Positions 6,325 through 31,719 of a stretch of DNA of 45,097 bases are shown here, one piece after another (positions within the stretch are counted from its first letter, which is position 1; every line of letters begins with the position of its first letter). The position numbers were made by a program, and so were the translations under genes. The stretch is from a virus. The DNA lies in the IMG/VR virus record IMGVR_UViG_3300032182_000111, positions 1-45,097 of that record. The stretch is one strand, 5' to 3'. The notes under the pieces were generated by a model. That model saw nothing but the letters and a program-made list of their open reading frames with translations. It did not search any database and was not told the DNA's origin.

Positions 6325-8520
6325 TTAAATAGGCAAGTAACGAACATCAATTTCATCACCTGTGCCTGGAGCAGAAGTGAATGTAAGGGTTGTTCCACTT
6401 ACTGTGTAGTCAGTAGTGGGACGCAGTACCAAGCCATTCACTACAACTAAAATGCTGTGTACGGTGTGACCGGTAACAATGGTAAAGTCAACAGTAGTGT
6501 TATCACCAGTAAACGTAGATGCGTTAGAGATACTTGGAGCAGGCACAGCAGCCCAGTCCATAGTTGTTGCACCAGTTTTCTGCAAGAACAAGCCAGTAGT
6601 ACCAGCACTGGTAGTAGCCAGTTTGGGTTCAGTTACTTGATCATCAGCAATTTTTGCAGAGGTAATTGCATCGTTACGAATGACGTTGGTGTTAACAGCT
6701 TCAGCGCCAGTAGTACTGTCAAGCTTGTCATTATTTACACCATCATCAGCCAGTTGTAGAGGGCCGACAGTTCCAGCACTAGGAGTACCGATATTGACAG
6801 AAGAACCAATAATTACACCAAATACAGTTGAACCTGCAGGAGGTGTAGCAGCAAGAGTAATCAGACCACCATTAAGGGTAAAACCTTCAGCAGGAGTACC
6901 AGTACCAGCGCTTGGTTTCTGGATTACACCGTTAATCGACAGAATGATTTGTTGAGCTGTTGTAGGTGCATTTGAAATAATTTCCGTAGCAGATGTACCT
7001 GCAGCAAAATCTGCAAGTTCAGATGCAGGAATCTCAAAAAACTGACCAATAGATTGAACTTCTTCCCACGCAGATGTCAGCCCGTTATAAACGAGCATTT
7101 TACCTGTGCTTTGGTTAAAGAACAGGTCACCCGAATCATTGTTAGTTGTGGGGTTAGAACCACTGTTGTCAGTACGATATCGCTCGTTAAAGTCGTTAAT
7201 ATCGTCGCTGAGCTGTACAAGGTCAGACTCTTTTAGAGTTGCCTTGTGGTAGTTATAGACCTGACCAGAGCCAGTAGATTCAACCAGCAGCCGCACACCA
7301 GCAACAATCGTGGTGTTATGGAAGTTGGAAGCAAAGTTATTGATGGTAACAGTTGTACCACCAACGGTCTGACCAGTACCAACACCGCTACCGTTAACAG
7401 CAATGCCACCAGCATCAGCAATACTAATCGTTACTTGATTAGGTGCTTGAGTGTTAGGAAAGCTGTTTTCATCAGCAATAGCGACAAAACCGTCAATAGC
7501 ACCGAGCTGAGTATTAACCCAATCAGCAACAGCTTTGGATGTAGGAAACTCAGTGTTACTGCTAGTGCTTAATGTCGTGGATTTAGTCATCCCCTGAACA
7601 ATGTTCAGATCAGTAGCACTAGAAGTAACTTGTGTACCAGCAATCTCTAAATTGCCAGCAACGTTCAAAGTCTTGTTAGTAACAACCTTGTCTGCACCAG
7701 TAGTAGTGTCAAACGTCAGGTAGGTATCAGCACCGTCAGTAACAGTCAATGCCGTAGCATTATTGTCAACAGCGCTGATAACGCGAGCACTGCCAGTAAA
7801 GTTAAGGTTAGCGCCAAGGTCTACGTTGTCATCAATATCAACTGCATCAAGGTTGGCTGTAGCGTCAACGTCCAGATCACCAGTAATAGTAACATTACGC
7901 AAACCAGTGATGTCTTTGTTGGCATCGACAACCACAGCTTTGCTAGCGGTTACCGTGCCGTCAGTAACAGGTCCAACTTTGTTGATGTCTTCAGGAGTAA
8001 CTGCAATCTGAGTTGTAGACGCAGATGCAAGTACGGGGACAAAACCAGTTTGGTTTGGCAGGCTGACAGTGTTAACACCTGTCGGCTCAACAACTGTCAA
8101 AGTTGTTGTAAGACCATCACCAACGTTAGCACCATCAAAGATAAAATTACCTTGAGTAGTAATATTACCTGTAAGAGTACCACCGGTTGAGTCAAGGTTT
8201 CTGTTTAAACGTTCTTGTGCAGAGAACAACACCTGATCATTGTTTCTGTTCAGGTCTTGTGCACGAATAGCCGAACCGGCAAAAAATGTAGCTTGTGCCG
8301 TATCAATTGCTGTATCGCGGAAGATACGAACAGCTACACCTGTGCCGGGTGCCGTGTTAAACGAAATAGTGGTAGCGTTGGCGAACGTATAGTCTGTAGT
8401 TACTGTTTTGAGAACGCCGTCAAGGGATACCTTAACATCCGTCTCCTCTAGATATTCAAATGTAATGGAATAATTCGTTGTAGCATTATTCCCTGTATAT
8501 GTGTTTTGGGTTACTGCCAT
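6325..8520 (-). CDS. Tail fibre protein, T7 gp17-like N-terminus (731 aa)
   Basis: The N-terminal ~130 residues match the T7 tail fibre N-terminal domain that docks the fibre on the tail: TYTGNNATTNYSITFEYLEE, then VRIFRDTAIDTAQATFFAGS and IRAQDLNRNNDQVLFSAQER. The central part is a long Asp/Asn/Thr-rich array of short beta-strands (DVDATANLDAVDIDDNVDLG), as in a trimeric shaft. The C-terminal ~130 residues repeat the N-terminal type of fold (TFTGDNTTVDFTIVTGHTV, then LRPTTDYTVSGTTLTF). This is the main host-contact fibre, placed as in T7 after the internal virion proteins. Confidence 0.88.
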   Translation of the reverse strand: MAVTQNTYTGNNATTNYSITFEYLEETDVKVSLDGVLKTVTTDYTFANATTISFNTAPGTGVAVRIFRDTAIDTAQATFFAGSAIRAQDLNRNNDQVLFSAQERLNRNLDSTGGTLTGNITTQGNFIFDGANVGDGLTTTLTVVEPTGVNTVSLPNQTGFVPVLASASTTQIAVTPEDINKVGPVTDGTVTASKAVVVDANKDITGLRNVTITGDLDVDATANLDAVDIDDNVDLGANLNFTGSARVISAVDNNATALTVTDGADTYLTFDTTTGADKVVTNKTLNVAGNLEIAGTQVTSSATDLNIVQGMTKSTTLSTSSNTEFPTSKAVADWVNTQLGAIDGFVAIADENSFPNTQAPNQVTISIADAGGIAVNGSGVGTGQTVGGTTVTINNFASNFHNTTIVAGVRLLVESTGSGQVYNYHKATLKESDLVQLSDDINDFNERYRTDNSGSNPTTNNDSGDLFFNQSTGKMLVYNGLTSAWEEVQSIGQFFEIPASELADFAAGTSATEIISNAPTTAQQIILSINGVIQKPSAGTGTPAEGFTLNGGLITLAATPPAGSTVFGVIIGSSVNIGTPSAGTVGPLQLADDGVNNDKLDSTTGAEAVNTNVIRNDAITSAKIADDQVTEPKLATTSAGTTGLFLQKTGATTMDWAAVPAPSISNASTFTGDNTTVDFTIVTGHTVHSILVVVNGLVLRPTTDYTVSGTTLTFTSAPGTGDEIDVRYLPI

Positions 8521-8533
8521 TGCTTACATTGTG

Positions 8534-11500
8534 TTAGCGGTTACGGGTGGCGTTTTGGAACTGTTGAACTTGCTCAACTTGTCCCAGTTTTCCAGCTTTT
8601 TGTAACCCTTCTTTAGCACGCCTAGTTTCACCCATTTCTATCAACTCTGGATAGATTTCAAATAGTTGAGCTTCAGCAGCTTGTTTAGCAACTCTGAAAA
8701 TCTGACTAATTTGATCGAATACTAAGCTAGATTCTAAACGAAGGTTTTCTGGATTTTCAAGATCTTTACCTGGAACACCTTTTTTACGTTGTTTGCGGTA
8801 AAATTCCAGTTCTTCTTTAATTTGTGGGTCTGTAAGCAGCTCTTTTAGTTGACCTTCAATGTCATATTGACCCATCAATTGTGCCATTTTACTCTTTTGT
8901 TCAGGAGTCAAACGGTTACCAAACGAATCAGTGTTGAAAGTTTGAGACACATCATAGCCAGTTTCACGCAGCAGCTTACCAACTTCGCTGTCTGTACCAG
9001 TCATTTGGAAAGGACTGATAGTATTAGCTAAACGTGTTGGAAAATCCCAATTTCTAACAACTTTGCCGTTTAAAGGATTATAAGCCAAAGGCAACCAACC
9101 ACGTGTAATTGGGTTACGATTAAGGATTGTGTCTTTAAAATCACGTTCTAGTTCACGCAATCCAGGGTTAAAGACATTAGCCAGTTCGTTACGCAAACCA
9201 CCGTAAGGAGCAAAGTTGTTAACTAGATTACCAGCCCAAGCTGCACCACGAGCACCATCAAATGCTAGGATGTCTTGGAGTGGTTGGATGCCTGCCAAGA
9301 ATGACTTGTTAGTCAAGTTCATAGAAACAATGTATCCTGCTTTGCGGAACATGTTTTCTGTAGCAGCTTCACCTAAGTTTTCAGCGTTGTCTCCAATGTC
9401 TGCAATCAATGCTAAGAAAGAAGCAAACGGTTCTAGACCATCATAGTTTATCCACTTGTTTCCAATTTTAATAGAACGTGGACGCCAATTAAAATCACGA
9501 ATCCAAGTGTTTCTAAGTTCACGATCAGCAGGACCATTGCCAGTCAAACGGTCAGTTGTGTACAAACCAAGAGCTGCACCAACCGTCATATAACCAGTAG
9601 CAATCCTACCGCGTACCAATGCTTTGTGTTGTGCTAATTGCGCGGGGGTTGTAATCCCATATTTTAACACATCTTCCATGTTATCCGCAGACGCCGACAA
9701 AATAGCTCGCACATCATCGTTAAACCGTGCAAGCAGTGGAGTATGCTTAGATACCACAGAAATAGCGTTAGCACCAGTTTTCATAAACAGGAAGAACGGA
9801 CGCAACAGAGGTGTCCGGTTGAGGAGGTTTTCAAGCTCACCCAGTTTACCACTTAGTGGAATCTGCAGAGCAACCTCTTGACCAGCCCGTTGGGCAGCAA
9901 TGTCGATGACTTCTCCTTGTTTGTTGAAGATGGTGTTGCGTAGATTTTCTTCATACTTCTGTAAAAGCTCTTTTGTCACCTTACCACCAGTTTCATCCCA
10001 TGCTGCATCAAAAGCTCGTGCTTTCAACTCTTGCCTACCAATCAACGTTTTAGAAAAAGCGTCGATGGTCTGCATAGCATTAGTAGGATAACGTACCCAC
10101 CGGTTGTTGTTAAAATCCTGCAAAGTAGAAGTAAACCGATACATCATTTTTTCAGCGCTTGTACCTTTTTCTTCAATAATTCTACCAAGATTTTGCCAGT
10201 AACTACGCTCACTAGGGCTAACCATCTGGTTTACATAAGGACCAGCTTGGTTATCAATTAGTGATTTATGGGTATTGCTAGCCAAGTGCCAAGCTTCACT
10301 GATGGTACCATACATGTTATCAAATGCCATGTGCAAACCTTTTGCCATAGCTTTTTGATCAGCAGCAAGTGCACCACCTAAAGCAATCTGCATTGGCTTC
10401 ATCACAGTCAACAATCCTGTACCGCTAAAAGCCCGTGCAAGGGTTTTAGGAGCCGATAGGATGCTATTGTACAACGTGTTGAACAAACCGTCAACAAACC
10501 GACTACGAGCATTGTCAGCGCCTACAAGAGACTTAAGGTTAAATACCTCATCCCTAGCATACCGGTACACTGCTTCCAAAGTGTTAGCGTGACCACCTGA
10601 CTCAGCAAACACGCGTAAAAACGTATCTGTTATTTCAGGGTCTGTACGCATAACCTGACCCAACTCTTTAATAAACGTTTGGATTTGATCTTGTTTGCTT
10701 TTTGCTAGACCGCTTCTCAACGTGCCAGCCGTCATAGAATCACGGCGACGTGCTCGCAGCAAAGAACCTGCAAACTCACTAGAACGTTGATTAGTCATCA
10801 ACGCAGCTTCGTACCTAGTCAAAAGCGTTGTAAGGCTTTCTTCCATAGGCACTTGACCTTTCAAAGTATGAAGAGCCAATGCTTTAGTATGAACCGCTTT
10901 GTTAAGGTCATGCATAACCATTTCGTATGCCATGACATTGGCAGGGTTCATAAACTCATTACGTGCACCAGTCTCTATATTCTTTGCGGTGATAGCGTCT
11001 TCAAGCAACATTTTTTCAATGTCGTCCCAATCAGCTTTACCAACATCAGGAAAACGCTCAACAATATCAAGATATTTACCCACAGCAAGTTGACGGGCTT
11101 CGGTCATGTTAACACCTAAACCAGCAACGTTTTTTCCAGCAGGTAGTTCCAAACCTTCTTGGATTTCTCCTGCCAACGTCTCTAATTGTTTACCAAGCTC
11201 TTTGTCATTCCTAGTAATACGTTTAATCGCAGCGTCAGTCATGATCCTTACACGATCACCAGCTGCAAAGTCACCACGTTTTGACATACTAATCATGTCT
11301 TTAAACGCAGCATACATACCATTAGTAGCAGAACCCCTGACTGCTTGATCAGGAACACTGTACATAGATGGGTGAGTAGAAGGAGTAGCTTTTGTCAAAC
11401 CGTAATCAAACAAATCCAATTGAATCTGCTCGTCAAGTGCATTAGCTTGCTCTTCTTTGATGTCATCACTGACTTTAGCAGCAGCTACTTCAGGATCAGT

Positions 11501-12463
11501 GCTCAAAGCTTCATCAAGATCTTTTTGAATTTTAATAAGCTTTTTCTGTGCTTTTCTTCGAGCTGGGGTGTCTACGTCACCCATTTGGGCTAATTCTTTA
11601 TTGAGTTTTTCAAGCTCTTTGTTGGCTGCTTCAAGATCAATATTTTTAGGTTTGATCGTGCCGTTGTCAATTCCTTCAGCTACAGCCTTGCCAGCTCTGA
11701 AAGAAAGCAGACGGTCTGTAATACCACCTAAAGAAATATCCTCAAGCACATGCTTAAGCTTTCTTTCCATAGGTGTGGTTTCAGGGCTGGTTGCTGTCAG
11801 AGTCCACCAAGGTACAATGTCTTTAATAGCATCGTTGATGGTTTCTCCTTCGGAATCAGACGAGATAAAGGTAGCAACAGCACTTTGTTTGACTGCTCCT
11901 GTTTTAAAAATACCAGGAATATATTTACCAAACTGTACAGCTTTACCGCCTTTCTCTACCCAATCAAGAGCACTTTTAACTTTGCCGATTTTGCCAACAG
12001 CACCAACACCGCTAAAAGAAAGACCAAAACCAAGAATACTACGAGCCACCTTACCCCAAACAGTTTTGTTCATGGGTTCGACTTCATCGTTGACTTGCAA
12101 CCATGTAGGCGTAAAATCCTTGTTAAAGGCTTGTCCAGTAAGAAGCATCTCAGCCGTACTGCCAATACCTTCTACAAAATCGATACCAGCGCCAACAACA
12201 GCAGTGCCGGCTTCTTGCAGTACGTTAACATCTTCTTCTTCTTCTTTCTCTTCTGTCTCAGGTTTCTCAGTTTGTTCTTCTTGCCTAGCTTTTATTTGCT
12301 GAGCTTCAGCATTGCGTTGTTGAGACTTTGCAACTACGTTTGCATCTACATCAGCTTGAGCTATACTGTCAGGACTGCTATACTCAAATTCTTCAACTTC
12401 CTTTTCCTGCTCTTCCTTGTCTCCAAGTTCTGTCTGTTCTGATCCCGTAGGAGTGTATTCCAT
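8534..12463 (-). CDS. Large internal virion protein, T7 gp16-like by position and size (1309 aa)
   Basis: The length (1309) is close to T7 gp16 (1318), and the gene sits between the gp15-like gene and the tail fibre as in T7. The first ~80 residues are extremely acidic and disordered (ELGDKEEQEKEVEEFEYSS). Several Gly/Ala-rich hydrophobic stretches follow (GTAVVGAGIDFVEGIGSTAE and ILGFGLSFSGVGAVGKIGK), as expected for a protein ejected into the envelope. The rest is largely helical. I see no lytic transglycosylase motif, unlike T7 gp16. The wall-degrading function seems to have moved to the neighbouring 1024-residue protein. Role inferred: ejected channel through the cell envelope. Confidence 0.75.
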   Translation of the reverse strand: MEYTPTGSEQTELGDKEEQEKEVEEFEYSSPDSIAQADVDANVVAKSQQRNAEAQQIKARQEEQTEKPETEEKEEEEDVNVLQEAGTAVVGAGIDFVEGIGSTAEMLLTGQAFNKDFTPTWLQVNDEVEPMNKTVWGKVARSILGFGLSFSGVGAVGKIGKVKSALDWVEKGGKAVQFGKYIPGIFKTGAVKQSAVATFISSDSEGETINDAIKDIVPWWTLTATSPETTPMERKLKHVLEDISLGGITDRLLSFRAGKAVAEGIDNGTIKPKNIDLEAANKELEKLNKELAQMGDVDTPARRKAQKKLIKIQKDLDEALSTDPEVAAAKVSDDIKEEQANALDEQIQLDLFDYGLTKATPSTHPSMYSVPDQAVRGSATNGMYAAFKDMISMSKRGDFAAGDRVRIMTDAAIKRITRNDKELGKQLETLAGEIQEGLELPAGKNVAGLGVNMTEARQLAVGKYLDIVERFPDVGKADWDDIEKMLLEDAITAKNIETGARNEFMNPANVMAYEMVMHDLNKAVHTKALALHTLKGQVPMEESLTTLLTRYEAALMTNQRSSEFAGSLLRARRRDSMTAGTLRSGLAKSKQDQIQTFIKELGQVMRTDPEITDTFLRVFAESGGHANTLEAVYRYARDEVFNLKSLVGADNARSRFVDGLFNTLYNSILSAPKTLARAFSGTGLLTVMKPMQIALGGALAADQKAMAKGLHMAFDNMYGTISEAWHLASNTHKSLIDNQAGPYVNQMVSPSERSYWQNLGRIIEEKGTSAEKMMYRFTSTLQDFNNNRWVRYPTNAMQTIDAFSKTLIGRQELKARAFDAAWDETGGKVTKELLQKYEENLRNTIFNKQGEVIDIAAQRAGQEVALQIPLSGKLGELENLLNRTPLLRPFFLFMKTGANAISVVSKHTPLLARFNDDVRAILSASADNMEDVLKYGITTPAQLAQHKALVRGRIATGYMTVGAALGLYTTDRLTGNGPADRELRNTWIRDFNWRPRSIKIGNKWINYDGLEPFASFLALIADIGDNAENLGEAATENMFRKAGYIVSMNLTNKSFLAGIQPLQDILAFDGARGAAWAGNLVNNFAPYGGLRNELANVFNPGLRELERDFKDTILNRNPITRGWLPLAYNPLNGKVVRNWDFPTRLANTISPFQMTGTDSEVGKLLRETGYDVSQTFNTDSFGNRLTPEQKSKMAQLMGQYDIEGQLKELLTDPQIKEELEFYRKQRKKGVPGKDLENPENLRLESSLVFDQISQIFRVAKQAAEAQLFEIYPELIEMGETRRAKEGLQKAGKLGQVEQVQQFQNATRNR

Positions 12464-12471
12464 GTGATTAA

Positions 12472-15400
12472 TTAACGCAAGTTATCTTTTGAACCATGCA
12501 TCAGTAAGATTTCGCCACCACCCGGTAAACGGTAGATGGACATTACGCCACCGCCTGAAGTATCAGTATAAGTTGTTACATAGCGAGCGCCTCGGACCGT
12601 AATCTGAGTACCTACTTCTGTTGCATAGTCAACCCCTCTATGGAATTTGCGGGTTCCATGTACAGGGTGCACACGCGAGCCGTAGCCCGATGTCATTTTA
12701 AATCGACCATCAGTAAGAGGACTGCCATCTACCATCAGATTCTTAAGAATCGGAGACGGATCTTGATAAGCTCCTCCTTTATAGTAACCCACATGAACGT
12801 GGGGTCCAGTGCTTGTACCAGTATTGCCAGTAATAAATCTACGCGCTGCTACACCCATTGTAGAGGGGTCTGAATAAGGAGAATCTGCAACTAAGCGTTG
12901 GTTGTTGAACGGGACATCAGGATCAATACCCATGTCTTTGTACAAACGAATCATCTTGTTTGCATACTGAGGGTCAGTTGCATAGCCTGCTTCTTTCAAA
13001 GCAATAGCTGCTTCCCTAGGAGTTTTAGCTGCTCGTACAGCAGCATATCTAGGTTGCTTCAGTAACTGTCCAAAGTCTGCAACACTTTGCAATCCGTTGT
13101 CATAGTCTCTAAACTGCGCTTCAGTGACTTGTCCTTCATATTCAGTGGTAGTGCGTACAGTACCGCTACCTTTAATACCAAAGAAATTGTTTCGTCCGCT
13201 TGGTTGTGTACCACGTGCAGACTCTAAAGCAAACACTGCTCCAGCCAATGGAATAGTGTTCGGTTCCATTTTATAGTGAGTGGCTGCTTGCATTACATCA
13301 GTAACACCAGCATCACCAGTTCTAATAGTTGCAGGAGGAAGTCCGCCAGCGACTGCAACATGGTTTACGCCTGTAGCCGTAGGGATGGCAAGCAAACGAT
13401 CTAAGCCAGCAAGTTTAGCGGCTTCCTCATATTCGTCTTTTTTATCAGTTCTGCGAGGTTCAGGTTTAAAACCATGAGCAGTGAGCAGAAGGTCACGAGC
13501 TTTATCATGAGTTAAGTATTCACCAGTTTCATTTCCTTTCGTTTTGTTGTAGGCACGGACATAAGTGTCCAACTTCCTACCAGCAGGGCTGTTTGGCGAA
13601 AGGCCGTTTTCATTGATAAACTTAGCATCAGCGTCAGTAAAGAAAGGGTCTTCACTAACATCAGTCAAACCGCCATAACCTGTTGATTTGGCATCTTCTG
13701 AAGCTGCAACTTCAATGTCTTGACTTAGTGTAGCACCATCTTGAGCGTTTGCAGTTACATAACCTTCAGGTGTAGTGAAGTTTGTAAAACGTATTCTAGC
13801 ACCATAACCAGTACGCGCATAAACACCTTTACCAGTTTCTACTAACTTCTCAACGTTACCCATAGAAAGCTGCAACGCTTCTTCCCAACTTGATGCTTTA
13901 GGTGGTTGAGTCATCATCAGTTGACCAGCTTCACGAATCATTTGACGACGAGCATGGTCTTTCATACCATTAACAGACGAGTGATGAAGACCACTCCGTA
14001 CAGCAACAAGGTTTAGTGTAGCATCTAAACTGTCGTTCAGTTCTTTTGTTTTTCTTTCTACTACATCAGCTGGCGGTTGTCCGAATTGATCGTTCTGTTC
14101 AACTCTCTTTCTTAAATCTTCAGAAATGCCATCCCTAACTAAAGCAGGATACTTTTCACGTAACCGCTCAGTCGTAAGGAAACCAGTCTTAGCATCGACC
14201 ATTGCATTTTTACGATCTTCTGCAAGGTCAATCTGATCTACTGTGTCGTTGTTAGCGAAGTCAATAAGCCGTTTATAGGCGGTGCTAGTAGTAGGCAGGT
14301 TATGTTCTCTACGGAACTTTTCAGCTGCTTCTAAAGCTTGTGCTTGAGTAAACGTGCCGTCTCTCAGCATAAATTCTCTAGCTTCTTCAGCACGACCACG
14401 AGCCTCTTGCTCGTTCATCTTGTCTTCTAAAACGTCCCTGTCATACCGTTGCTTTTTAATGTCGCTCTTAGCCTTTGCGATTTGATCAGGAAAAGAACGT
14501 GCAATAGTTTGTCCGGTTGGTCCGTGCGTTTCTGCAAAGATTTTGTTAACTTCTTCGTGTGAAAGAATGCCGTTCTCTTCTGCTTCTACAATGTATTTAA
14601 AAGCATGTTTAACAGCTTCTGTTTTAGTCATCCCACCGTAACGGTCAAGATGCAAAACTATGCCTTCAAAAGATTTACCACTGTAGTTATCCGACTGTAC
14701 ATCAGCAACTAACAGTTGTTGAGCTTCCTGTTTACCTACTTCTTGTTTTTCCTTTACAATTTCAGCACGTTGAGTTTGGCTAATTTCAGCCCGTGCCTTC
14801 CTCATGGTTGGCATCAGGACATTATTAACAATACCACGATTAAAGTTCAACACACCGTTTTCTCTAAAAAACTGGTTAGTCAAAACATTCATCGCAGTCT
14901 CTAGGTACTCTTCACCACGCTCAACAGACAGCTGAAATGCTTCAGAAGGTGTAAAGGTCTCACCAGGATTAAGAGGGTCAGGAATTGGAGTAGTAGTATC
15001 TGACTCCAAAGCTTGCATAATGTAAGGCTTAGCTTTAGCTCCAATGTCGCTCAAAGCCCGCATACGCTGACCGTAACCACGCCAGCCTCCAGCAAAACGC
15101 ATACGTTGCGTAGCTTCTTCAGGAGCACCAGCTTTCTTTAAATTATCTACACCAGCTTGGAAGTTCTCATCTTCCTGCTTTAGTGCAGCTACTTGTTGAT
15201 TATATTCAGCTTGTTCTGCTGCGTTAGCTACAGGGTTAATTAAATCTTCATTTAAACCTGCCAGCATCTCAGCTTCGTTGTAAGCTTGGACAGCTTTTAA
15301 ACTAACATCACTGAGTGTTTTAGAAAATGCAGCAAGCTGTTGCAGCCGCTTGTCTTCATAAACTTGACGGAACTTCTCTTGCTCTTGCATGTCAGAAAGA

Positions 15401-15546
15401 CGTGCGCGTGCCTGAGCTTCCATATTGTTTTGCTCAATCTGAGCATTCTTCTCCATCAAAGGAGTAGGGTCAGGAGCTTTTACAGCCTGGAATCCTTCGG
15501 CTTGGGCTGCTCCTTGAAACTGTGCCCTGTATTCAAAATCTTGCAT
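12472..15546 (-). CDS. Internal virion protein with glucosaminidase-like and permuted M23 peptidase domains (1024 aa)
   Basis: Residues 1-750 are a long helical region, Gln/Glu/Ala-rich, as in T7 gp15-like core proteins. Residues about 757-880 form a glucosaminidase/FlgJ-type muramidase domain with a likely catalytic Glu775 (FALESARGTQPSGRNNFFGI). Residues 899-1024 contain all M23 (LytM) peptidase landmarks but in permuted order: GPHVHV (His916, His918) first, then the SGYGSRVHPVHGTRKFHRGVD segment (His969, Asp973; quoted here in part), and finally LLMHGSKDN (His1017). Zinc ligands and the catalytic His are all kept. It probably cuts both glycan and peptide bonds of the cyanobacterial wall during DNA ejection, and perhaps at lysis. 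Confidence 0.85.
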   Translation of the reverse strand: MQDFEYRAQFQGAAQAEGFQAVKAPDPTPLMEKNAQIEQNNMEAQARARLSDMQEQEKFRQVYEDKRLQQLAAFSKTLSDVSLKAVQAYNEAEMLAGLNEDLINPVANAAEQAEYNQQVAALKQEDENFQAGVDNLKKAGAPEEATQRMRFAGGWRGYGQRMRALSDIGAKAKPYIMQALESDTTTPIPDPLNPGETFTPSEAFQLSVERGEEYLETAMNVLTNQFFRENGVLNFNRGIVNNVLMPTMRKARAEISQTQRAEIVKEKQEVGKQEAQQLLVADVQSDNYSGKSFEGIVLHLDRYGGMTKTEAVKHAFKYIVEAEENGILSHEEVNKIFAETHGPTGQTIARSFPDQIAKAKSDIKKQRYDRDVLEDKMNEQEARGRAEEAREFMLRDGTFTQAQALEAAEKFRREHNLPTTSTAYKRLIDFANNDTVDQIDLAEDRKNAMVDAKTGFLTTERLREKYPALVRDGISEDLRKRVEQNDQFGQPPADVVERKTKELNDSLDATLNLVAVRSGLHHSSVNGMKDHARRQMIREAGQLMMTQPPKASSWEEALQLSMGNVEKLVETGKGVYARTGYGARIRFTNFTTPEGYVTANAQDGATLSQDIEVAASEDAKSTGYGGLTDVSEDPFFTDADAKFINENGLSPNSPAGRKLDTYVRAYNKTKGNETGEYLTHDKARDLLLTAHGFKPEPRRTDKKDEYEEAAKLAGLDRLLAIPTATGVNHVAVAGGLPPATIRTGDAGVTDVMQAATHYKMEPNTIPLAGAVFALESARGTQPSGRNNFFGIKGSGTVRTTTEYEGQVTEAQFRDYDNGLQSVADFGQLLKQPRYAAVRAAKTPREAAIALKEAGYATDPQYANKMIRLYKDMGIDPDVPFNNQRLVADSPYSDPSTMGVAARRFITGNTGTSTGPHVHVGYYKGGAYQDPSPILKNLMVDGSPLTDGRFKMTSGYGSRVHPVHGTRKFHRGVDYATEVGTQITVRGARYVTTYTDTSGGGVMSIYRLPGGGEILLMHGSKDNLR

Positions 15547-15554
15547 TAGTTACC

Positions 15555-16259
15555 TCATTCAGAAACAGGGACAGGGGCTTTAAAGCCTAAGAAACCAGAA
15601 CCAGGAGCTGTTAGACTCATACCAGTCTGGAAAGCGCCGAACGCTGTATTAGCGATACCTAGCAGGTTATTGCTAGATGGCATAGGAATTCTAGGACCAC
15701 GTGCAATCTCTTGTTGCATCATGGGTTGTACCATAACATTTTGATAAGATGCCAAGTCAGCAGCATACTGTTGACGTGCAATGCCTTGCAGATTTCTGCC
15801 AGACTGACGCTTCATGCTAGCAAGTTGTTCAGCCTTTTCAGCTTGCATTCTACCAAAAGTTCCAAGTGTGCCCATCATACTAGCACGTTCATACGAACGT
15901 CCTCTACCTTCACCTGCCGCAACATTAGCACCCATAGCAGCCATCAGCTGTCTACGCTGTGCTGCTGTTGAGAATGCGTTTTGTTGGAAGGCTTCATTCA
16001 TCCGCTCTTGCTCCGTGATAAAACCACGTTGAGCAGCTTCCCTGTTAAAGTCCATCTGAGCAGAATGGACCTGCAGTTTCTTACCATAGATCTCCTGTGC
16101 ACGCCTGTTGGCAGCACGAATGCGTAGGTTCTGTTGGTTACGTTGGAAGTCTTGCTGTCGTTGTGCAAAGCGGGCTTGACGCTGAGCTTCAGCTTGTTCA
16201 GCCCCTTGATTAAAGAGACCCAAACCCATCTGGAGCCCAGCCATTGCATAATTTAACAT
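15555..16259 (-). CDS. Internal virion protein, T7 gp14-like (234 aa)
   Basis: The N-terminus MLNYAMAGLQMGLGLFNQG is a short hydrophobic/Gly segment. It is followed by a long Gln/Arg/Ala-rich helix (AEAQRQARFAQRQQDFQRNQ) that continues to about residue 180. Size (T7 gp14 is 196 aa), composition and place between tail tube B and the gp15-like protein fit the gp14 core protein, which is ejected and inserts in the outer membrane. The C-terminus returns to a hydrophobic Gly-rich segment (LLGIANTAFGAFQTGMSL). Confidence 0.72.
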   Translation of the reverse strand: MLNYAMAGLQMGLGLFNQGAEQAEAQRQARFAQRQQDFQRNQQNLRIRAANRRAQEIYGKKLQVHSAQMDFNREAAQRGFITEQERMNEAFQQNAFSTAAQRRQLMAAMGANVAAGEGRGRSYERASMMGTLGTFGRMQAEKAEQLASMKRQSGRNLQGIARQQYAADLASYQNVMVQPMMQQEIARGPRIPMPSSNNLLGIANTAFGAFQTGMSLTAPGSGFLGFKAPVPVSE

Positions 16260-16260
16260 A

Positions 16261-19194
16261 TTAGCCCCTCCTATAGAAACGCTTGTTGTACTTACCTTCC
16301 CAATCTAAACTCAGCAGCGATACAGGGAACGGAGTGTTACCGATGATACGAACAGCCAAGTTCTCGTTGCGTTGATAGATAGGTACAACGTGAATAGAGC
16401 TTGCTTGCATGTTTACGTTGTTGAGGTTATATTGACTGGGTTGAGTAACACTAATCGTATCCGTCCAGTCAGGGACACCAGTGATGCTGATCTTGTAGTC
16501 TACAGGACCACTAAGACCAGTCTTAACTTTCAGTCGATGGATGATCAGACTAGATACATCATCGTTATTGACACTTTTGTCAGCTACATTGTAGACATAA
16601 ATTTTAGGTAGATCAATGATCATTTCATAGATATACCCAATAACCAAGTCACGTCCTCTGTAGTCACCATCAATGTCTACATATTGTGCACCTGCACTGC
16701 CTGCAATTGTAGGCTTAAGTACAGCGCCAACTGATTCAGCTGAGGTTGTAGCGCCGTCTCCAATGAAACCACCCAACACAACCACATTAAGTTCTTTTCC
16801 AGCAACGCTATCATAAGGCAAGAACACACGGGTTTGATCTGTAGTGCTATTATAGGTACGATGTGGGTTTGTGCTGAACAAGTCTAGACACACATCAGTT
16901 TTTTCACCAGTAGGTAGTGTTAGGAAACCCTGCTCACTAGACTGAGTAACGTCAAACTTCTGTACATATACATCTGTACCATTCTTGACTACAGCATACC
17001 ACGTGCTGCTATCGAAGAACTGAGTCAGCAGTGTGCCAGTCAAGGTCCACTTATACCAAGAGTTCACGATACGCCGTTCCCGTGATTCTGTCAAGAAACG
17101 ATACTGGAAGATATCAGAGCTGCCAATGGTGCCCAACGAAACGATGGACAAAGCAGGTGATGATACCAAGCTATCGATTGATTGCGGAATCAGTTCCGGT
17201 ACAAGGTTTGTGATGTCAGCCATCAAAGGAGGCTGCTCAGTGTTGATCTCGTTCAGCTCAAACAGCCTTGTGTACAGCGGTGTCTTACTGATAAACGCTT
17301 GTGAGGTGCCAAGAGGCACAGACTCTACAGTAGCGTCACACTCGTAAGAGCTGAGTGTGTTGACCTTTGAAGACTTTGGAGATAGGATATCAGAGTCTGT
17401 CGTAAGGAGGAACTGCTCTGTTGTAGAGTACATAACCAGACCAACGCTGGTTGGCTCTACATAATTCAAGAACACTGGTTTCTTACCAGCAGCAGAGATG
17501 TCAATAGGATCGTCATCTGTAGCTACTTGAGCAGACGTGTTCCAGAAATTGAACAAGTCACCAGCCTTACCAAGAATCACATTCTGTCCAGACAAGAAAC
17601 CCATACGGTTCCTGTAGAAGAAGATGTGTGAGATCTCATGGTCTACAAAACTAGGCTTAGGGTTGGTAAGATCATCACCAACAATCCTATTATTCCAGTT
17701 TACAGGACCGAATGTAAATGACCCGTCAGCGTTGCGTACAAGCTGATGAGGCATAGTCAGAGGGTCAAACTCGTATGTAATACCAGGCTCAGTAGTTTCT
17801 TCCCAATAACCTGTACCATCACCACCAGAACCTACAAACTTAACATACATGTCATCGATGTCAACACTGGTAGAGTTGATCACCTTAGTGATGTAGCCAT
17901 CTTTAGATTGTGCTGGTAGTTTGCTAATGTTATCTACAGTATCTGTAATAGCGTAGATACTGTTAGAAGAACCAGGACCAGCTGTTTTGATAGTAAAAGC
18001 GGAAGTTCTAGTAATATAAAGCCCTGGACCAATTGCTTCAGCAGTATAACCGTTGTTGCCATTAATGTCACTAGCTAGATCAGCAGCAATAGCTTCACCA
18101 TCAGTTGTAGCACTAGAACTGAAAGTCGCAGTCTGCCCAGTCAAGGTGATATCATAATTACCACTGCCAACAACACTGATAACAACAAATGCACGGTATG
18201 CAGGGATGCCAGGGTGTGTGGTATTGGCAGTCATCTGTACTGTTTTAGATTTATTCAGTACAAACGTATAATCATTCAGAGTTAGCAGCTCGATATCAGA
18301 TGGGGTAGCATCTTTAAGATATGCGTTACCAGGCACACTTATGATGCTACAATTATTAAATTCAGCATCATAGGCAGTCTTAGCTGTTGCTTCTGCAGTA
18401 ACTAAGTTGTTGTAATTAAGTACAGCATTATCGTACGCAGTGGTGTCCAGCGCAAGCTGTGCGGGCGTGCTAGCTGCAGCCACCTCTAAATCAGCTTCAT
18501 AGACTCTGTAACCTTTACTGGCTAGCAGGGGCTGCTCTTCTGTGCGTTCGTTGCCAAGAGTGTAACCAGCTGGCAGGGTAGAGCTGTTAGAAGAAATAAC
18601 TGTTCCAGAATTTTTTACCAAAAAATTACCGCTGGAATCTTGGAGAATACCGCTTTCCAAATACTGCTCTAAGGTGGTACCATAGCTGGTCTGCTGTGGG
18701 TTGCTGATCTGTGCATAGGACACAGCAAACAAGTTTGTGATAGTTGCCGTCTGTCCAGCAATAGTTTTAGCTAGAGTAGCACCAGCAGTTTGCAAAGTCT
18801 CCAACGCTGTAGCCGTAGCCAGTTTAGCAGCGTTATAGTTATCAGTTGCGGTTTTTAAATTGACAAGGTTACAGGTACCAGGGACACCTGTATTAGAGCC
18901 CATATCAACAGCACGTGCAGTGCCGTCTAACAAGCTCCAAACACTGAACCTATCATTGTCATATTGAACGATATACTTCTCTTGTTGATCACGTAGGATG
19001 GGAAACCACTTACCCGATGCTGTAGCGTTGGGGAGCTTGGAAACAAACTCACCACCTGGACGCTTGAGCATACCCAATGCAAAGTCAGGGAATGCATTGA
19101 CTGCATCTTTTACCTGACCCGGACGTTTCTTACTGTCTGGCTGTTGTGATATACCAGACAGAAGATTAGGAATAGATTGAGAAATTGTACTCAT
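16261..19194 (-). CDS. Tail tubular protein B, T7 gp12-like nozzle (977 aa)
   Basis: The start MSTISQSIPNLLSGISQQPD and the following KKRPGQVKDAVNAFPDFA segment are the signature of podovirus tail tube B (nozzle) proteins. The rest is a large beta-propeller-like protein with typical pieces such as FFYRNRMGFLSGQNVILGKA and a C-terminal VRIIGNTPFPVSLLSLDWEG. At 977 aa it is longer than T7 gp12 (794). A Thr/Ala-rich helical insertion at about residues 95-290 accounts for part of this. It overlaps tail tube A by 4 bases. Confidence 0.9.
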   Translation of the reverse strand: MSTISQSIPNLLSGISQQPDSKKRPGQVKDAVNAFPDFALGMLKRPGGEFVSKLPNATASGKWFPILRDQQEKYIVQYDNDRFSVWSLLDGTARAVDMGSNTGVPGTCNLVNLKTATDNYNAAKLATATALETLQTAGATLAKTIAGQTATITNLFAVSYAQISNPQQTSYGTTLEQYLESGILQDSSGNFLVKNSGTVISSNSSTLPAGYTLGNERTEEQPLLASKGYRVYEADLEVAAASTPAQLALDTTAYDNAVLNYNNLVTAEATAKTAYDAEFNNCSIISVPGNAYLKDATPSDIELLTLNDYTFVLNKSKTVQMTANTTHPGIPAYRAFVVISVVGSGNYDITLTGQTATFSSSATTDGEAIAADLASDINGNNGYTAEAIGPGLYITRTSAFTIKTAGPGSSNSIYAITDTVDNISKLPAQSKDGYITKVINSTSVDIDDMYVKFVGSGGDGTGYWEETTEPGITYEFDPLTMPHQLVRNADGSFTFGPVNWNNRIVGDDLTNPKPSFVDHEISHIFFYRNRMGFLSGQNVILGKAGDLFNFWNTSAQVATDDDPIDISAAGKKPVFLNYVEPTSVGLVMYSTTEQFLLTTDSDILSPKSSKVNTLSSYECDATVESVPLGTSQAFISKTPLYTRLFELNEINTEQPPLMADITNLVPELIPQSIDSLVSSPALSIVSLGTIGSSDIFQYRFLTESRERRIVNSWYKWTLTGTLLTQFFDSSTWYAVVKNGTDVYVQKFDVTQSSEQGFLTLPTGEKTDVCLDLFSTNPHRTYNSTTDQTRVFLPYDSVAGKELNVVVLGGFIGDGATTSAESVGAVLKPTIAGSAGAQYVDIDGDYRGRDLVIGYIYEMIIDLPKIYVYNVADKSVNNDDVSSLIIHRLKVKTGLSGPVDYKISITGVPDWTDTISVTQPSQYNLNNVNMQASSIHVVPIYQRNENLAVRIIGNTPFPVSLLSLDWEGKYNKRFYRRG

Positions 19195-22023: not shown

Positions 22024-23103
22024 TTAGCCGACCGCCGGAGCAGTGAGCGCAACAGGTGCACTCTCTACACTAGCCAGGTCGAGTGGGAAATTGTGAGCAT
22101 TACGCTCGTGCATGACTTCCATACCAAGACCAGCTCGGTTGAGGATGTCAGCCCAGGTGTTGATGACTCTGCCATCCGCAGCCTGGATCGATTGATTAAA
22201 GTTGAAGCCGTTCAAGTTGAACGCCATAGTGCTTACACCAAGTGCGGTGAACCAGATACCCACCACAGGCCAAGCAGCCAAGAAAAAGTGAAGACTACGT
22301 GAATTATTAAAAGACGCATATTGGAAAATCAAACGTCCGAAGTAGCCGTGTGCGGCAACAATGTTGTAGGTCTCTTCTTCTTGACCGAACTTGTAACCAT
22401 AGTTTTGGCTTACGTTTTCAGTCGTCTCTCGAACCAGCGAGGACGTAACAAGCGAACCGTGCATTGCAGAGAACAGCGACCCACCAAACACTCCAGCAAC
22501 GCCCAGCATATGAAAGGGGTGCATGAGGATATTGTGTTCAGCTTGAAAGACGAGCATGTAGTTGAACGTGCCACTGATACCCAGAGGCATGCCATCACTA
22601 AATGAACCCTGACCGAAAGGGTAGACGAGGAATACTGCAGTAGCAGCAGCGACCGGAGCAGAGTATGCAACAAAGATCCAGGGCCTCATTCCGAGTCGAT
22701 AACTAAGTTCCCATTCGCGTCCCATGTAAGCGAAGACACCGATAAGGAAGTGGAAGACAACAAGCTGGTAGGGTCCTCCGTTGTAGAGCCATTCGTCGAG
22801 ACTGGCTGCTTCCCAGATGGAGTAGAGATGTAGTCCGATTGCGTTGGAGCTGGGTACGACTGCTCCTGAGATGATGTTGTTTCCATAGAGAAGCGATCCA
22901 GCAACCGGTTCACGGATGCCATCAATATCAACAGGTGGTGCTGCAATAAATGCAACGATAAAACAAGTGGTAGCTGCCAGTAGACAAGGAATCATGAGGA
23001 CACCGAAGTGTCCCACATAAAGCCGGTTCTCAGTGCTGCTAACCCACTGGAGGTAGCGATCCCACAGAGAGGGACGCTTCTGAAGTGCGATAGTAGCTGT
23101 CAT
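22024..23103 (-). CDS. psbA: Photosystem II D1 protein
   Basis: Full-length D1 (359 aa). All functional residues are present at the canonical numbers: Tyr161 (TyrZ), Asp170, Glu189, His190, His198, His215, Ser264, His272, His332, Glu333, His337, Asp342 and Ala344, with a C-terminal extension after DLA344 for CtpA processing. Residue 130 is Glu ([18 protein letters not shown]), the D1 form linked in cyanobacteria to high light. During infection it replaces damaged host D1, so photosynthesis keeps supplying energy. It is embedded in the middle of the structural genes, between tiny basic proteins and the beta-barrel gene, as in other marine cyanopodoviruses. Confidence 0.99.
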
Positions 23104-26944: not shown

Positions 26945-27656
26945 ACTGTGGGAGGTTTTGGTTAGCGTGTTCAAAGAAGGCAGGCATCCGTGCTCTCTGT
27001 GTGTCAGAAAGCTGTGGTGCTTTACCTTCATACATTAGCCGGTCGCTAGAATCCAGCCAAAATTTTTTGTCCAAATATTTATCGTTACTTTTACCTAGTG
27101 GTTGCATGACCCAGGCAATAGTCGCCTTACGGAGTTTGTCCAAAGACGGCGAAGCTTCCAGCCCAAGCTCTCTACAAACCAAACTATTTGTTGCGACGTG
27201 AACTTGTTCGTCTCTACTGATGTCAGCGCTGACAGTTCGCATTCCCGCGTCACCAGCAAACCGCATGAAGGGTAGTAGGACGAAAAAAATTGCACGTTCA
27301 GCAACCATGGCTTTGAGGATAGTGTGATCAGGATGTTCTGTCCACGCATCACGGAGTGCGAGGGCTTCCCGTTCAGCTTTCGGATCAACGCCCCAAGCAT
27401 CGGCGACATAACCCAGAGCCCTGTCGTGCTTAATCTCGTCTTGGACATTGCTCTCCAGTATCTCACGTGCGAGAAGTGGAACTTCAGAGGCGAGCGCATC
27501 ACGAATAAAATCTCCCACAGGTAGTTCCATATGTCGCAAGGCAAGTGCACGGCGCAGAGTCTCTTCCGCTCCCTCCTTGCACTTCCCTTTGGTAGTAGCC
27601 ACAGGGGTCCATGTCCGTTTGCGTTCTAGTAGTTTTTGATAAGGATGTTGTCTCAT
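26937..27656 (-). CDS. nrdB: Ribonucleotide reductase class I beta-like subunit (239 aa)
   Basis: A four-helix ferritin-like protein with two metal-ligand pairs: Glu74/His77 in QDEIKHDRAL and Glu150/His153 in ISRDEQVHVATN, plus Glu120 in MVAERAIFF. At 239 aa it is shorter than typical NrdB (about 320-380). It starts with an ATGA overlap on the alpha-subunit stop, so the two chains are made together. In P-SSP7-type cyanopodoviruses the RNR was reannotated as class I once such an adjacent beta subunit was recognised. This gene is the same kind. It should generate the oxidant for the Cys179 thiyl radical in the alpha subunit. Confidence 0.85.
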   Translation of the reverse strand: MRQHPYQKLLERKRTWTPVATTKGKCKEGAEETLRRALALRHMELPVGDFIRDALASEVPLLAREILESNVQDEIKHDRALGYVADAWGVDPKAEREALALRDAWTEHPDHTILKAMVAERAIFFVLLPFMRFAGDAGMRTVSADISRDEQVHVATNSLVCRELGLEASPSLDKLRKATIAWVMQPLGKSNDKYLDKKFWLDSSDRLMYEGKAPQLSDTQRARMPAFFEHANQNLPQYA

Positions 27657-29023
27657 TCTTGGCAGTCACAGGTAGGTTCTTTTTCATTGAGTAAATCTGC
27701 AAGGTAGTCGTCTACATCTTGTTGGTCAAGAGCGGCATACGCATCAGATTTATCTTGTGTATCGCTCATAACTTGGAGCGAATAATACAAGGAAGTCTGG
27801 GGACTCTTTAGCCACTCTTCGATAAAGGCGTTGTCGTAGGTGACAACATCACTCCAGCTATTGAAGCTATACCCGTGAAGAAGCCCAGTGCGATCGAGAA
27901 TCGTCATCATACCATCAGCCACACGCTTGTAAGCGTCCCAGCCGACCTCTGATGCGATCTCTACATCGCCATAGAAATATGATTGGACACCAAAGGTGCC
28001 ACTATCCCGGTCAACGACACGGGAGATAGGTGGTGCAATCTCAGGAGTGCAGGTGAAACCATCTACATCCTTACTGCGGTAGCTACAGCTCGCAGTAGGA
28101 GCGATTGCGAAAGCTCGGTCCATCGTGTAACTGCGTGCGATACTTGCAGCAGCGTCGATGCCGGAAGCGAATTGAGAGACCAGCTCGAATGCAGGTGTCT
28201 GGAGAATCTCGCCGTTGTTGTACTGGTCAAGAGCACGTCCAAATTGTTCATAGGTTACACCTACACGTCGAAGGAGATTTGCAAGTCCGAGCATTCCAAG
28301 GCCGACTTGTCGATCCGTCTCGGGTGGGAGGTATTCACCACTCGCACCAACTCCAGTGGTTGCATGCAGTGCACACAGTTCAGACATACCTTCGACGAAA
28401 GCTCTTGGAATGTCATCGAACTCACAGGCTCCAAGATTAACATGCTGTAGGAGACAGGTCCCTCGGCTAGGCAGGTACACTTCGAGACAAACGTTGCCTC
28501 GAATACGGTTGCCTTCTTTGTCATACTTTACTTTGTTGAGCCAAATGTCACCGGACTTAATGCCATTGAGTAGTTCCTCTTTAAAAGAACACGCCTCCCA
28601 CCATTCATCTGTAATGTTGATGCATCGCTTAGCCCAAGGTAGCTCATGACGTGGAGTTTGTATAAACTCAAGAGCATCAGCGTGGCACAGGTCCAAGTGC
28701 AGGACCACAGCACCATTTTTATAGACTCCACCACGTCGGAGTACAGAGTTAAGGGTCGAATAGATCTGGCCAAATGAAACCGGGCCGCTAGCGACAAGTC
28801 CCTTTCCATTTTCAGTTCCTTTCGGTCGAAGTTCGGACAGGTGGATAGCTACACCAGCTCCGTTACGGAGAGCGTGTGATGCAAACCGCCAGCTGGCTTC
28901 AATACCTTCAGGACCCTCGCAAGAGTCGGCAACTTTAAAAATTGTACAGCTGACAGGCAACCGTGATGTTGGGTCATCGATCCAGCTTTGGACGCGACCC
29001 GTACGTGAAATAAGATTGGACAT
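27653..29023 (-). CDS. nrdA: Ribonucleotide reductase alpha (catalytic) subunit, compact form (456 aa)
   Basis: The catalytic core is complete: Cys26 (LPVSCTIF) and Cys190 (GTCLLQHVNLG) as the redox pair, Asn177/Cys179/Glu181 in the NVCLEV finger loop, and a phosphate-binding IAPTASCSYRS. The C-terminal tail CDCQE supplies a CxC re-reduction pair. At 456 aa it lacks the N-terminal ATP-cone activity domain, so it should escape dATP feedback inhibition (inference from the domain's known role). It converts ribonucleotides to deoxyribonucleotides for phage DNA synthesis. ATG overlaps the MazG-like gene stop (TAATG), and the beta gene follows with an ATGA overlap. Confidence 0.93.
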   Translation of the reverse strand: MSNLISRTGRVQSWIDDPTSRLPVSCTIFKVADSCEGPEGIEASWRFASHALRNGAGVAIHLSELRPKGTENGKGLVASGPVSFGQIYSTLNSVLRRGGVYKNGAVVLHLDLCHADALEFIQTPRHELPWAKRCINITDEWWEACSFKEELLNGIKSGDIWLNKVKYDKEGNRIRGNVCLEVYLPSRGTCLLQHVNLGACEFDDIPRAFVEGMSELCALHATTGVGASGEYLPPETDRQVGLGMLGLANLLRRVGVTYEQFGRALDQYNNGEILQTPAFELVSQFASGIDAAASIARSYTMDRAFAIAPTASCSYRSKDVDGFTCTPEIAPPISRVVDRDSGTFGVQSYFYGDVEIASEVGWDAYKRVADGMMTILDRTGLLHGYSFNSWSDVVTYDNAFIEEWLKSPQTSLYYSLQVMSDTQDKSDAYAALDQQDVDDYLADLLNEKEPTCDCQE

Positions 29024-29772: not shown

Positions 29773-30439
29773 CAACGGTAAGGATCTTAGCGAGTCGTGC
29801 ATTTTGTAGAGCAATCTCTTCACCGAGATCCTTTTCCTTGAATGCATTGACTACGGTTTCCCAGCTGTAGCCGTGTTTGTCGAACAGGATTTCTGCTCGC
29901 TTCACACCTACCCCAGGTGCACCAGAGTAACCATCAGTCTGGTCACCAGCTAGTGTTTGAATGAGGTGCCATTTAGCGCCCTCTGTAGGCGTGACTGTGA
30001 CTCGTTCGTCAAGAGTATACAAAGATCCGGGAATCTGTCGCATATCCTTGTCTGGCGAGACTATGACATTGCCTGAAAATTTTGTGGCATAAATCCCCAT
30101 GGCATCATCTGCTTCAAGGGTATCCATGATCACAACCTCGTACTCAGTCTTGAGTTGGTTGATTACACGTTTGTAGCCACACGGTTTCTTTCGGTTGCGG
30201 TGTCCTTTGTAAGAGGGGAGGATCGATTTCCGAAAGTTAACCGAGTCAGAAAAGAATAGCACAGGTTCCGTGAAACCGCCAAACTCTCCAACGATTTTAT
30301 CGATGTCTTTAAGAATGTTTTTATATGCATCAGAAAACTTAGATGTAACCATGATCACGTCAGATCCCCAGTCAATCTCTGTTTCAGCAGCAGCACAGCC
30401 CTTATAGACAATATAGTCAGCGTCGATGTACAGTTTCAT
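29660..30439 (-). CDS. 5'-3' exonuclease, T7 gp6-like FEN family (259 aa)
   Basis: All acidic metal sites of the FEN/PIN-like fold are visible: MKLYIDADYIVYKGCAA at the N-terminus, SYKGHRNRKK in the arch region, MDTLEADDAMGIYA, VIVSPDKDMRQI, and LAGDQTDGYSGAPGVGVKRA with the helix-hairpin-helix. It removes primers and supplies ssDNA for recombination during T7-type replication and concatemer processing. Its ATG overlaps the DNA polymerase stop by one base. Confidence 0.93.
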   Translation of the reverse strand: MKLYIDADYIVYKGCAAAETEIDWGSDVIMVTSKFSDAYKNILKDIDKIVGEFGGFTEPVLFFSDSVNFRKSILPSYKGHRNRKKPCGYKRVINQLKTEYEVVIMDTLEADDAMGIYATKFSGNVIVSPDKDMRQIPGSLYTLDERVTVTPTEGAKWHLIQTLAGDQTDGYSGAPGVGVKRAEILFDKHGYSWETVVNAFKEKDLGEEIALQNARLAKILTVDDYDFKQRCPIPWTPAPGYRVDDGAKLQDEKDERPAA

Positions 30440-31719
30440 CAGTGCACCTCTGCCCAGTTGTTCCCGATTTTGGCTTCTGCTGCGATTGGGATTCTAAGTT
30501 TGTAGAACTCGCCAGCCGCTGCAGCGCTGTATACCAGGGATGTTGATAAATCTTCTGCATGTTGTGGATCGCACTCAAACTGCAGTTCGTCATGAACGAA
30601 CGCCAGCTGAGAGCAGCATAGTTGTGTGTTGTCAATTGTTTCTTGGTTTATGACTAGCCATCTTTTCGCAAGCGCAGCAGCTGACCCTTGGAGTAAGAAG
30701 TTAAGGGCTTTGTGAGATGAGTCGAGCGGTATTCTGCGACCGTCAATCGCCTTAATAAACCCTCGATCACCCGTAGCTTTAACAGCACTAAGGAGCGCAT
30801 CAAGACCAGGGATCGCCTCAACATACGCATCGCGAATCTCTTTACCTTTGGATTTAGCTCTAGAACTGCTGAGAGATGAGTCATAACTGAGTCCAATCTT
30901 TTCGTTGCCTGCTCCATAAAGGAAGGCATAGGTTACGGTCTTCACAAGTTTCCTTGAAATACCGATCTTGTCTGCGTTTACTTGGTGGATGTCTCCGTTG
31001 AGAAGGATGTCGGCGTATCTACCACCGTCGTAACGGGCGAGATAGTGTGCCAACATGCGAAGCTCAATGCCAGCAAGATCAGCACCGACCATGACTTGAC
31101 CCGGAGTTGGTACAAATAGTTGTCTAAATCGTGAGTCACTCGGTACCTGGGCTAGGTTGGGGTTCTTGTGCGACATACGGAACGTAGCACACCCAACAGA
31201 ACAATGGTGGTGAACTCGGCTAGCAGTCGTACACAGCTTCAGCCATGCGTTCGTGCCTTCCGAGATCATCCCCAACTTCTTCGTAATATCGAGACACTTC
31301 GCGAAGTCCCCTGCAATCGTAATCCCACCGGAGGCAATCTCCATCAATATGGTCTCGTCGATAACAGGCTTCCCAGTAGTTGTCAACTGGGTTGGCTTCC
31401 AGCCATAGAATGTGGAAAGGATCCATGCAATATGATCTCGCGATGTGGGGTTCAGCTCTTTGAGCCGTGTTGACGGGCAGCCTTGAAAGTATCCTTGTAC
31501 TTTGTTATTTCTTTTAGGATTGAACGTCGAGCCTTCGACGAAAGGATGCCTGTCTCGTAATACTTTCTTAGTTTCTTCCAGCTCTTTTTGGAGAGCCGAT
31601 GCAAGCTGCCATGCAGCGCGTTCATCAAAATACCATCCATGTAGCTCCTGCTTAGTCATAAGGTGTGCTACCTGATGTTCCATTTGGACCCATTCAGGTA
31701 AGGGCGGAAGTGTTGGCAT
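30439..31719 (-). CDS. DNA polymerase, polymerase domain (family A, T7 gp5-like), separate gene (426 aa)
   Basis: Motif A is GADLAGIELRMLAHY (Asp214). The O-helix RKLVKTVTYAFLYGAGNEKI carries Lys260, Tyr264 and Tyr268. Motif C is FVHDELQFE (His376-Asp377-Glu378). Tyr264 occupies the position of E. coli Pol I Phe762, as in T7. The palm, fingers and thumb are complete, but the 3'-5' exonuclease domain is a different gene just upstream. The ATG at 31719 overlaps that gene by 52 bases in the -1 frame. NPTSRDHIAWIL near residue 90 matches the T7 thumb region. No thioredoxin gene is seen in the window. Confidence 0.94.
   Translation of the reverse strand: MPTLPPLPEWVQMEHQVAHLMTKQELHGWYFDERAAWQLASALQKELEETKKVLRDRHPFVEGSTFNPKRNNKVQGYFQGCPSTRLKELNPTSRDHIAWILSTFYGWKPTQLTTTGKPVIDETILMEIASGGITIAGDFAKCLDITKKLGMISEGTNAWLKLCTTASRVHHHCSVGCATFRMSHKNPNLAQVPSDSRFRQLFVPTPGQVMVGADLAGIELRMLAHYLARYDGGRYADILLNGDIHQVNADKIGISRKLVKTVTYAFLYGAGNEKIGLSYDSSLSSSRAKSKGKEIRDAYVEAIPGLDALLSAVKATGDRGFIKAIDGRRIPLDSSHKALNFLLQGSAAALAKRWLVINQETIDNTQLCCSQLAFVHDELQFECDPQHAEDLSTSLVYSAAAAGEFYKLRIPIAAEAKIGNNWAEVH

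Follow-up and report, generated by a model that had tools for sequence, protein, structure and literature searches.

Does a wall peptidase of the M23 family, found at the end of a predicted cyanophage ejection protein, have the two halves of its chain in exchanged order, and is its active site still complete? M23 is among the commonest wall-peptidase folds, and the order of its motifs is treated as a defining feature. An initial annotation, made from the sequence, had proposed that the domain is circularly permuted, that it has lost none of its ligands and that it forms, with a glucosaminidase domain before it, a pair of wall-cutting activities in one protein. We found no permuted M23 domain in the literature searched, which included review articles covering M23 and wall hydrolases and left most subscription journals outside its range, so that a prior description is possible.

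Genomic context

The DNA analysed, here called the window, is the whole 45,097-nucleotide virus record IMGVR_UViG_3300032182_000111. It belongs to a T7-like cyanophage, with capsid, portal and terminase genes of the T7 type, and carries psbA and a ribonucleotide reductase gene, both typical host-derived genes of cyanophages. The genes that bear on the question are the following.

16261..19194, minus strand: tail nozzle, gp12-like, the synteny anchor (Pfam PF25675, E 8.6e-180; 51% identity to S-RIP2)
15555..16259, minus strand: small virion-module protein of 234 aa, placed at the gp14 position by its location (phrog_29086, function not annotated)
12472..15546, minus strand: P0001, predicted virion protein of 1024 aa at the T7 gp15 position, with both putative wall-cutting domains (open reading frame and translation)
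8534..12463, minus strand: gp16-like internal virion protein of 1309 aa (phrog_6651, internal virion protein, E 9.8e-223)
22024-23103: psbA
27653-29023: ribonucleotide reductase gene
35036-37384: T7-like RNA polymerase (59% identity to S-CBP1)

The P0001 gene is flanked by the gene at the gp14 position and that of the gp16-like protein, with the nozzle gene upstream. The window thus preserves the synteny of nozzle, gp14, gp15 and gp16, and matches the T7 ejection proteins gp14, gp15 and gp16 in gene order and position, suggesting that P0001 is carried in the virion and ejected. The T7 wall enzyme is located in gp16, whereas the window has two predicted wall enzymes at the C-terminal end of its gp15-position protein. 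Elsewhere in the window, the DNA polymerase is encoded by two overlapping open reading frames (30439-32195), one for the 3'-5' exonuclease (31668-32195) and one for the family A polymerase (30439-31719); the gene is either split or frameshifted.

Domain layout and motif order

The C-terminal part of P0001 contains these features.

12931..13287, minus strand: GH73 glucosaminidase domain, residues 754-872 (Pfam PF01832, E 4.7e-19)
12475..12870, minus strand: circularly permuted M23 domain of LytM type, residues 893-1024 (doubled-profile alignment, AlphaFold model, crossed structure matches)
12742..12843, minus strand: C-terminal half of M23, first in the chain, residues 902-935, GNTGTSTGPHVHV (Pfam M23; half-profile at 902-920, 36 bits)
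12493..12699, minus strand: N-terminal half of M23, second in the chain, residues 950-1018, TSGYGSRVHPVHG...HRGVD...LLMHG (half-profile at 950-1023, 100 bits)
12472..12474, minus strand: stop codon TAA, 7 codons past H1017 (sequence; the next gene starts at 12463)

The GH73 match exceeds its cut-off (69.7 bits against 30.2), and FlgJ structures match this domain both by sequence and by fold. Its candidate catalytic residue, Glu775 (codon 13222-13224), is invariant across 36 relatives. The placement of a glucosaminidase directly before the M23 domain, as first annotated, is borne out by Pfam.

Both zinc motifs of M23 are present in P0001, but in reversed order. The HxH motif lies in GPHVHV, with H916 (12799-12801) and H918 (12793-12795); the Hx3D motif follows as HRGVD, with H969 (12640-12642) and D973 (12628-12630); and the additional catalytic histidine, H1017 (12496-12498), comes last, after HxGxD as usual and yet not before HxH in the chain. 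The canonical order is Hx3D, His, HxH and that of P0001 is HxH, Hx3D, His, so that the domain is a permuted variant of M23 and not an ordinary member. The protein has a single HxH (916-918) and two matches to HxxxD: HRGVD, at residue 969, and HGSKD, which starts at the middle histidine, residue 1017. When residues 880-1024 were shuffled 200,000 times, a motif pattern of this kind arose in 47 cases. The residue numbers, motif coordinates and order originally read from this 1024-aa open reading frame were exact, and the stop codon does follow directly after the domain.

Standard profiles see little of this domain. Pfam by itself matches profile positions 72-96, the last quarter, to residues 906-930, and the whole-protein M23 score, 19.5 bits, stays below the curated cut-off of 28.7, as is expected of a model that can match one half only. 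The other half was recovered in part by PHROG 37190, positions 123-179 of which (the middle of a peptidase profile) match residues 951-1006, and by phmmer, which matched residues 943-1018 to 3SLU. Since standard profiles match one half only, incomplete annotation or a score below cut-off is probable for many phage wall enzymes.

A second M23 domain in P0001 would have told against a permutation. Half-domain profiles gave one C-terminal and one N-terminal half in the protein, and no second domain. Because GH73 ends at 872, the C-terminal half begins at 902 and the stop codon lies 7 codons past the middle histidine, the remaining space is too small to hide an ordinary M23 domain. Pfam found no M23 in the other window proteins scanned, which included the main structural and replication genes, and a six-frame Pfam search of the record returned no M23 match at E <= 0.001.

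Evidence for a circular permutation

Residues 893-1024 of P0001 are a true circular permutation of M23. Evidence comes from the A6 alignment, made of 34 diverse permuted domains, which was compared with a profile built from eight canonical M23 domains (A7). Against a single canonical copy the match covers no more than 80 columns (score 119, E 1.2e-20); against a doubled canonical profile it passes the junction without a break and covers 123 columns (score 192, E 5.4e-31). Homology to M23 thus extends over the whole domain, 123 of 143 columns. Template columns 93-131 are used first and columns 1-87 next, with about 5 columns skipped, which places the cut just past the strand of the middle histidine.

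Structures of known peptidases agree. The permuted profile aligns with 3SLU and 6MUK in two segments whose order is crossed (total E 2.9e-21); in 3SLU the N-terminal half pairs with chain residues 213-298 and the C-terminal half with 307-338. Within A6, H916, G971 and D973 are invariant and H1017 nearly so. A family-wide mis-reading is ruled out by S-SRP01 and L218-L233, whose domains are canonical at the same locus. The doubled-profile test, the crossed matches, a compact single-chain model and the occurrence of the same order in independent phages all support the original view that this is a real permutation and not a duplicate fragment.

Active site and an altered clade

In LytM, zinc is bound by H210, D214 and H293, and water is activated by H260 and H291 (PMC4594094; PMC9662197). 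By motif, the equivalents of H210, D214, H293, H260 and H291 in P0001 are H969, D973, H918, H1017 and H916. All five are present, in keeping with the claim that no ligand has been lost.

Most relatives at the gp15 position have not kept the full set. In a collection of 36 distinct permuted domains from this locus, every member has H916 and D973, and H1017 is missing only from one truncated match; Asp replaces H918 in 32 of the 36 and Ser replaces H969 in 31, and both of these zinc ligands are replaced in 31/36. The full set of five residues is found at this locus in the window, L009 and L010; S-TIM54, S-TIM66 and the majority of the stand-alone proteins described below keep it as well. The gp15-position proteins of L012-L088 form a large clade with HLD in place of HxH and SHGID in place of HxGxD, a pattern which, kept under strong purifying selection, suggests a changed metal site. 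The median dN/dS in this sister clade is 0.067 in the M23 region, compared with 0.136 in the preceding stretch.

With two zinc ligands replaced in 31 of the 36 gp15-locus domains, activity may not be the shared function, and the permuted domain could be a degenerate M23 fold that serves in peptidoglycan binding or virion assembly rather than in cutting. The substitutions to HxD and SHGID in domains that are nonetheless conserved (dN/dS 0.07) fit this explanation, and binding roles are on record for degenerate M23 folds such as EnvC and NlpD (PMC9662197). We nevertheless regard it as unlikely for P0001: the five residues are intact in the window and in the L009, L010, S-TIM54, S-TIM66 and most stand-alone domains, and even the altered clade retains the water-activating histidine pair and the Asp, which pure binding would not need.

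Predicted structure

Modeled by AlphaFold2 with the A6 alignment, the 132 residues of the M23 part fold as a monomeric single domain (pLDDT 92, pTM 0.86). The M23 part was folded alone because a model of both domains together gave only GH73 matches. In BFVD, the model has full-length matches in the same order to other phage models (E 8.7e-10 to 9e-4): a 1191-aa model, the P60 internal virion protein, an S-TIM5 virion protein and a tape-measure fragment. Foldseek gave the permuted model no significant full-length match in the PDB. A permuted chain order is expected to produce this outcome, and we did not take it as a sign of a new fold. In a fold comparison with the PDB, 2GU1 aligns to one half of the model (40-132; Z 5.3, 85 residues, 3.2 A), and the M23 entries, 2GU1 among them, tie with unrelated lectins. 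An alignment confined to one half is likewise expected from the permuted order, yet it is not proof of it.

An active site shared between chains is a further consideration. T7 gp15 is oligomeric, and split halves are compatible with swapping, so that the halves might pair between adjacent subunits of the ejected ring. The model makes this improbable, since a single chain folds by itself (pTM 0.86) with a short linker between the halves. Small stand-alone proteins and tape-measure proteins have this order too, and a common oligomeric state is unlikely for them.

Distribution among phages

The permuted M23 domain is not unique to the window phage: it turns up in virion and tail genes across several phage groups that are unrelated to one another. 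Scans of viral contigs with single sequences, either the window domain or full P0001, found no relatives; these were retrieved from viral contigs with a four-sequence alignment (A2) and a three-sequence alignment (A5). Fetched open reading frames were classed by half-profiles, with both halves required close together. By this procedure 122 were permuted and 87 canonical, counts that include near-copies and two repeated contigs. Permuted domains are found at the gp15 locus of S-CBP1, DSL-LC07, P60 and most of L009-L088, in virion proteins of S-TIM54 and S-TIM66, in S-EIVl, and in the tape-measure proteins of the Acinetobacter phage R3177 and the Moraxella phage Mcat23. They also occur in stand-alone proteins of about 240 aa, one of which lies close to head genes (L113), and in proteins of 550-675 aa, one of them between tape-measure-like and tail genes (L147). 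Loci from bacterial genomes were canonical in 49 of 49 cases despite the permuted query, though permuted copies may exist in prophages.

Decayed M23-like sequence lies upstream of the permuted domain in the Aurunvirus phages S-TIM66 (L004, 6435-9491) and S-TIM54 (L008, 4366-7332), possibly a trace of a permutation that arose by tandem duplication. Such a trace could also speak for the view that the halves in P0001 are remnants of a tandem duplication that form no domain. This view is very improbable: P0001 has no spare half between the end of GH73 at 872 and the start of the C-terminal half at 902, and the domain is conserved, under purifying selection and recurrent in more than 100 open reading frames. 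An assembly or sequencing artefact, conceivable because the window is an environmental virus record, is refuted by the same order in the genomes of the isolates S-CBP1, DSL-LC07, P60, S-EIVl, R3177, Mcat23, S-TIM54 and S-TIM66.

One contig shows a different arrangement of the two enzymes. In L074 (5989-6737) the GH73 open reading frame stops at 6396 and the permuted M23 is encoded by an overlapping open reading frame in another frame (6360-6737); a frameshift, a sequencing error or a programmed event could account for the frame change.

Variation at the gp15 position

The C-terminal wall-enzyme module at the gp15 position varies among cyanopodoviruses, as follows.

GH73 and permuted M23: window, S-CBP1
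SLT and permuted M23: L010, L091
Phage lysozyme and permuted M23: P60
GH73 and canonical M23: S-SRP01
Canonical M23, without GH73 in Pfam: L225
Hydrolase_2, without M23: S-RIP2, S-SBP1, S45-C4 and 7B11-B (the last below the curated cut-off)

The comparison of domain order among cyanopodoviruses that had been suggested at the outset thus yields a canonical domain in S-SRP01 at the very locus that is permuted in the window, and another hydrolase in S-RIP2, S-SBP1 and 7B11-B. The S-SRP01 domain shares with that of the window its locus, its GH73 partner and its active-site residues, but it has the ordinary motif order and belongs to the canonical group in a tree. In that tree, built from both halves (76 rows, 89 columns), one change splits permuted from canonical domains with weak support (82/91), and the half-profiles used, having been derived from permuted sequences, may bias the tree towards grouping the permuted forms. 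Because the S-SRP01-like domains place among other canonical domains, whole domains have more likely been exchanged than rearranged where they stood.

A further reading, with a little less than even probability, is that phages have an M23 clade of their own that descends from one ancient permutation and has spread among virion genes of different phage groups, and that a large cyanopodovirus subclade with a different metal site (HxD and SHGID), under purifying selection, possibly performs new chemistry. The gp15 locus is a natural experiment in which the domain may be canonical, permuted with intact ligands, permuted with altered ligands, or without M23. It offers a way to study how permutation affects an enzyme of the virion and if the changed metal site is still functional.

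Proposed function and nearest known enzymes

Very probably, residues 893-1024 of P0001 are a single permuted M23 metallopeptidase domain with a rebuilt active site that acts with GH73 on the wall at entry. The new chain ends would fall within the segment that normally joins the strand of the middle histidine to the HxH strand, and the original ends would be joined by a short linker, at about residues 932-949. On folding, the domain would restore the usual site, with zinc held by H969, D973 and H918 and water activated by H916 and H1017. Once set free from the virion, as infection begins, the GH73 and M23 pair would cleave the peptide cross-links of the wall as well as its glycan strands. A D,D-endopeptidase acting on meso-DAP cross-links is suggested by the GYGSRVHPVHG segment and by the best matches among structures. 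The M23 domain is most likely an active, ejected D,D-endopeptidase, and P0001 is best read as a two-enzyme protein, carried in the virion, that opens the wall at entry. What the permutation might gain for the phage, a tether beside the active site or an easier passage through the tail, is speculation.

The closest known enzymes are the M23B D,D-endopeptidases of the meso-DAP type (NMB0315, 3SLU; the N. gonorrhoeae enzyme, 6MUK; ShyA, 2GU1/6U2A). Both of their halves align with P0001, and they share with it the five active-site residues and an SxFGxRxHP segment before HxGxD, but the halves are swapped in the phage domain and its new ends lie between the middle histidine and HxH. The zinc ligands and catalytic histidines of LytM/lysostaphin (M23B) also map to window residues; the window differs from LytM in its swapped order and in having GYGSRVHPVHG in place of the LytM sequence around Tyr204. 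The nearest precedent for the rearrangement itself is provided by the permuted NlpC/P60 proteins (LRAT-like, YaeF/Poxvirus G6R families; PMC6403190), which likewise have a wall-peptidase fold with reordered catalytic residues, although NlpC/P60 is a cysteine-peptidase fold unrelated to M23. Two further phage structures in the PDB contain M23-like stretches: chain E of 9K2V, named 'Internal protein', matches one M23 half (E 1.4e-5), and chain A of 9M7N (Gp16) has M23 half matches in two stretches.
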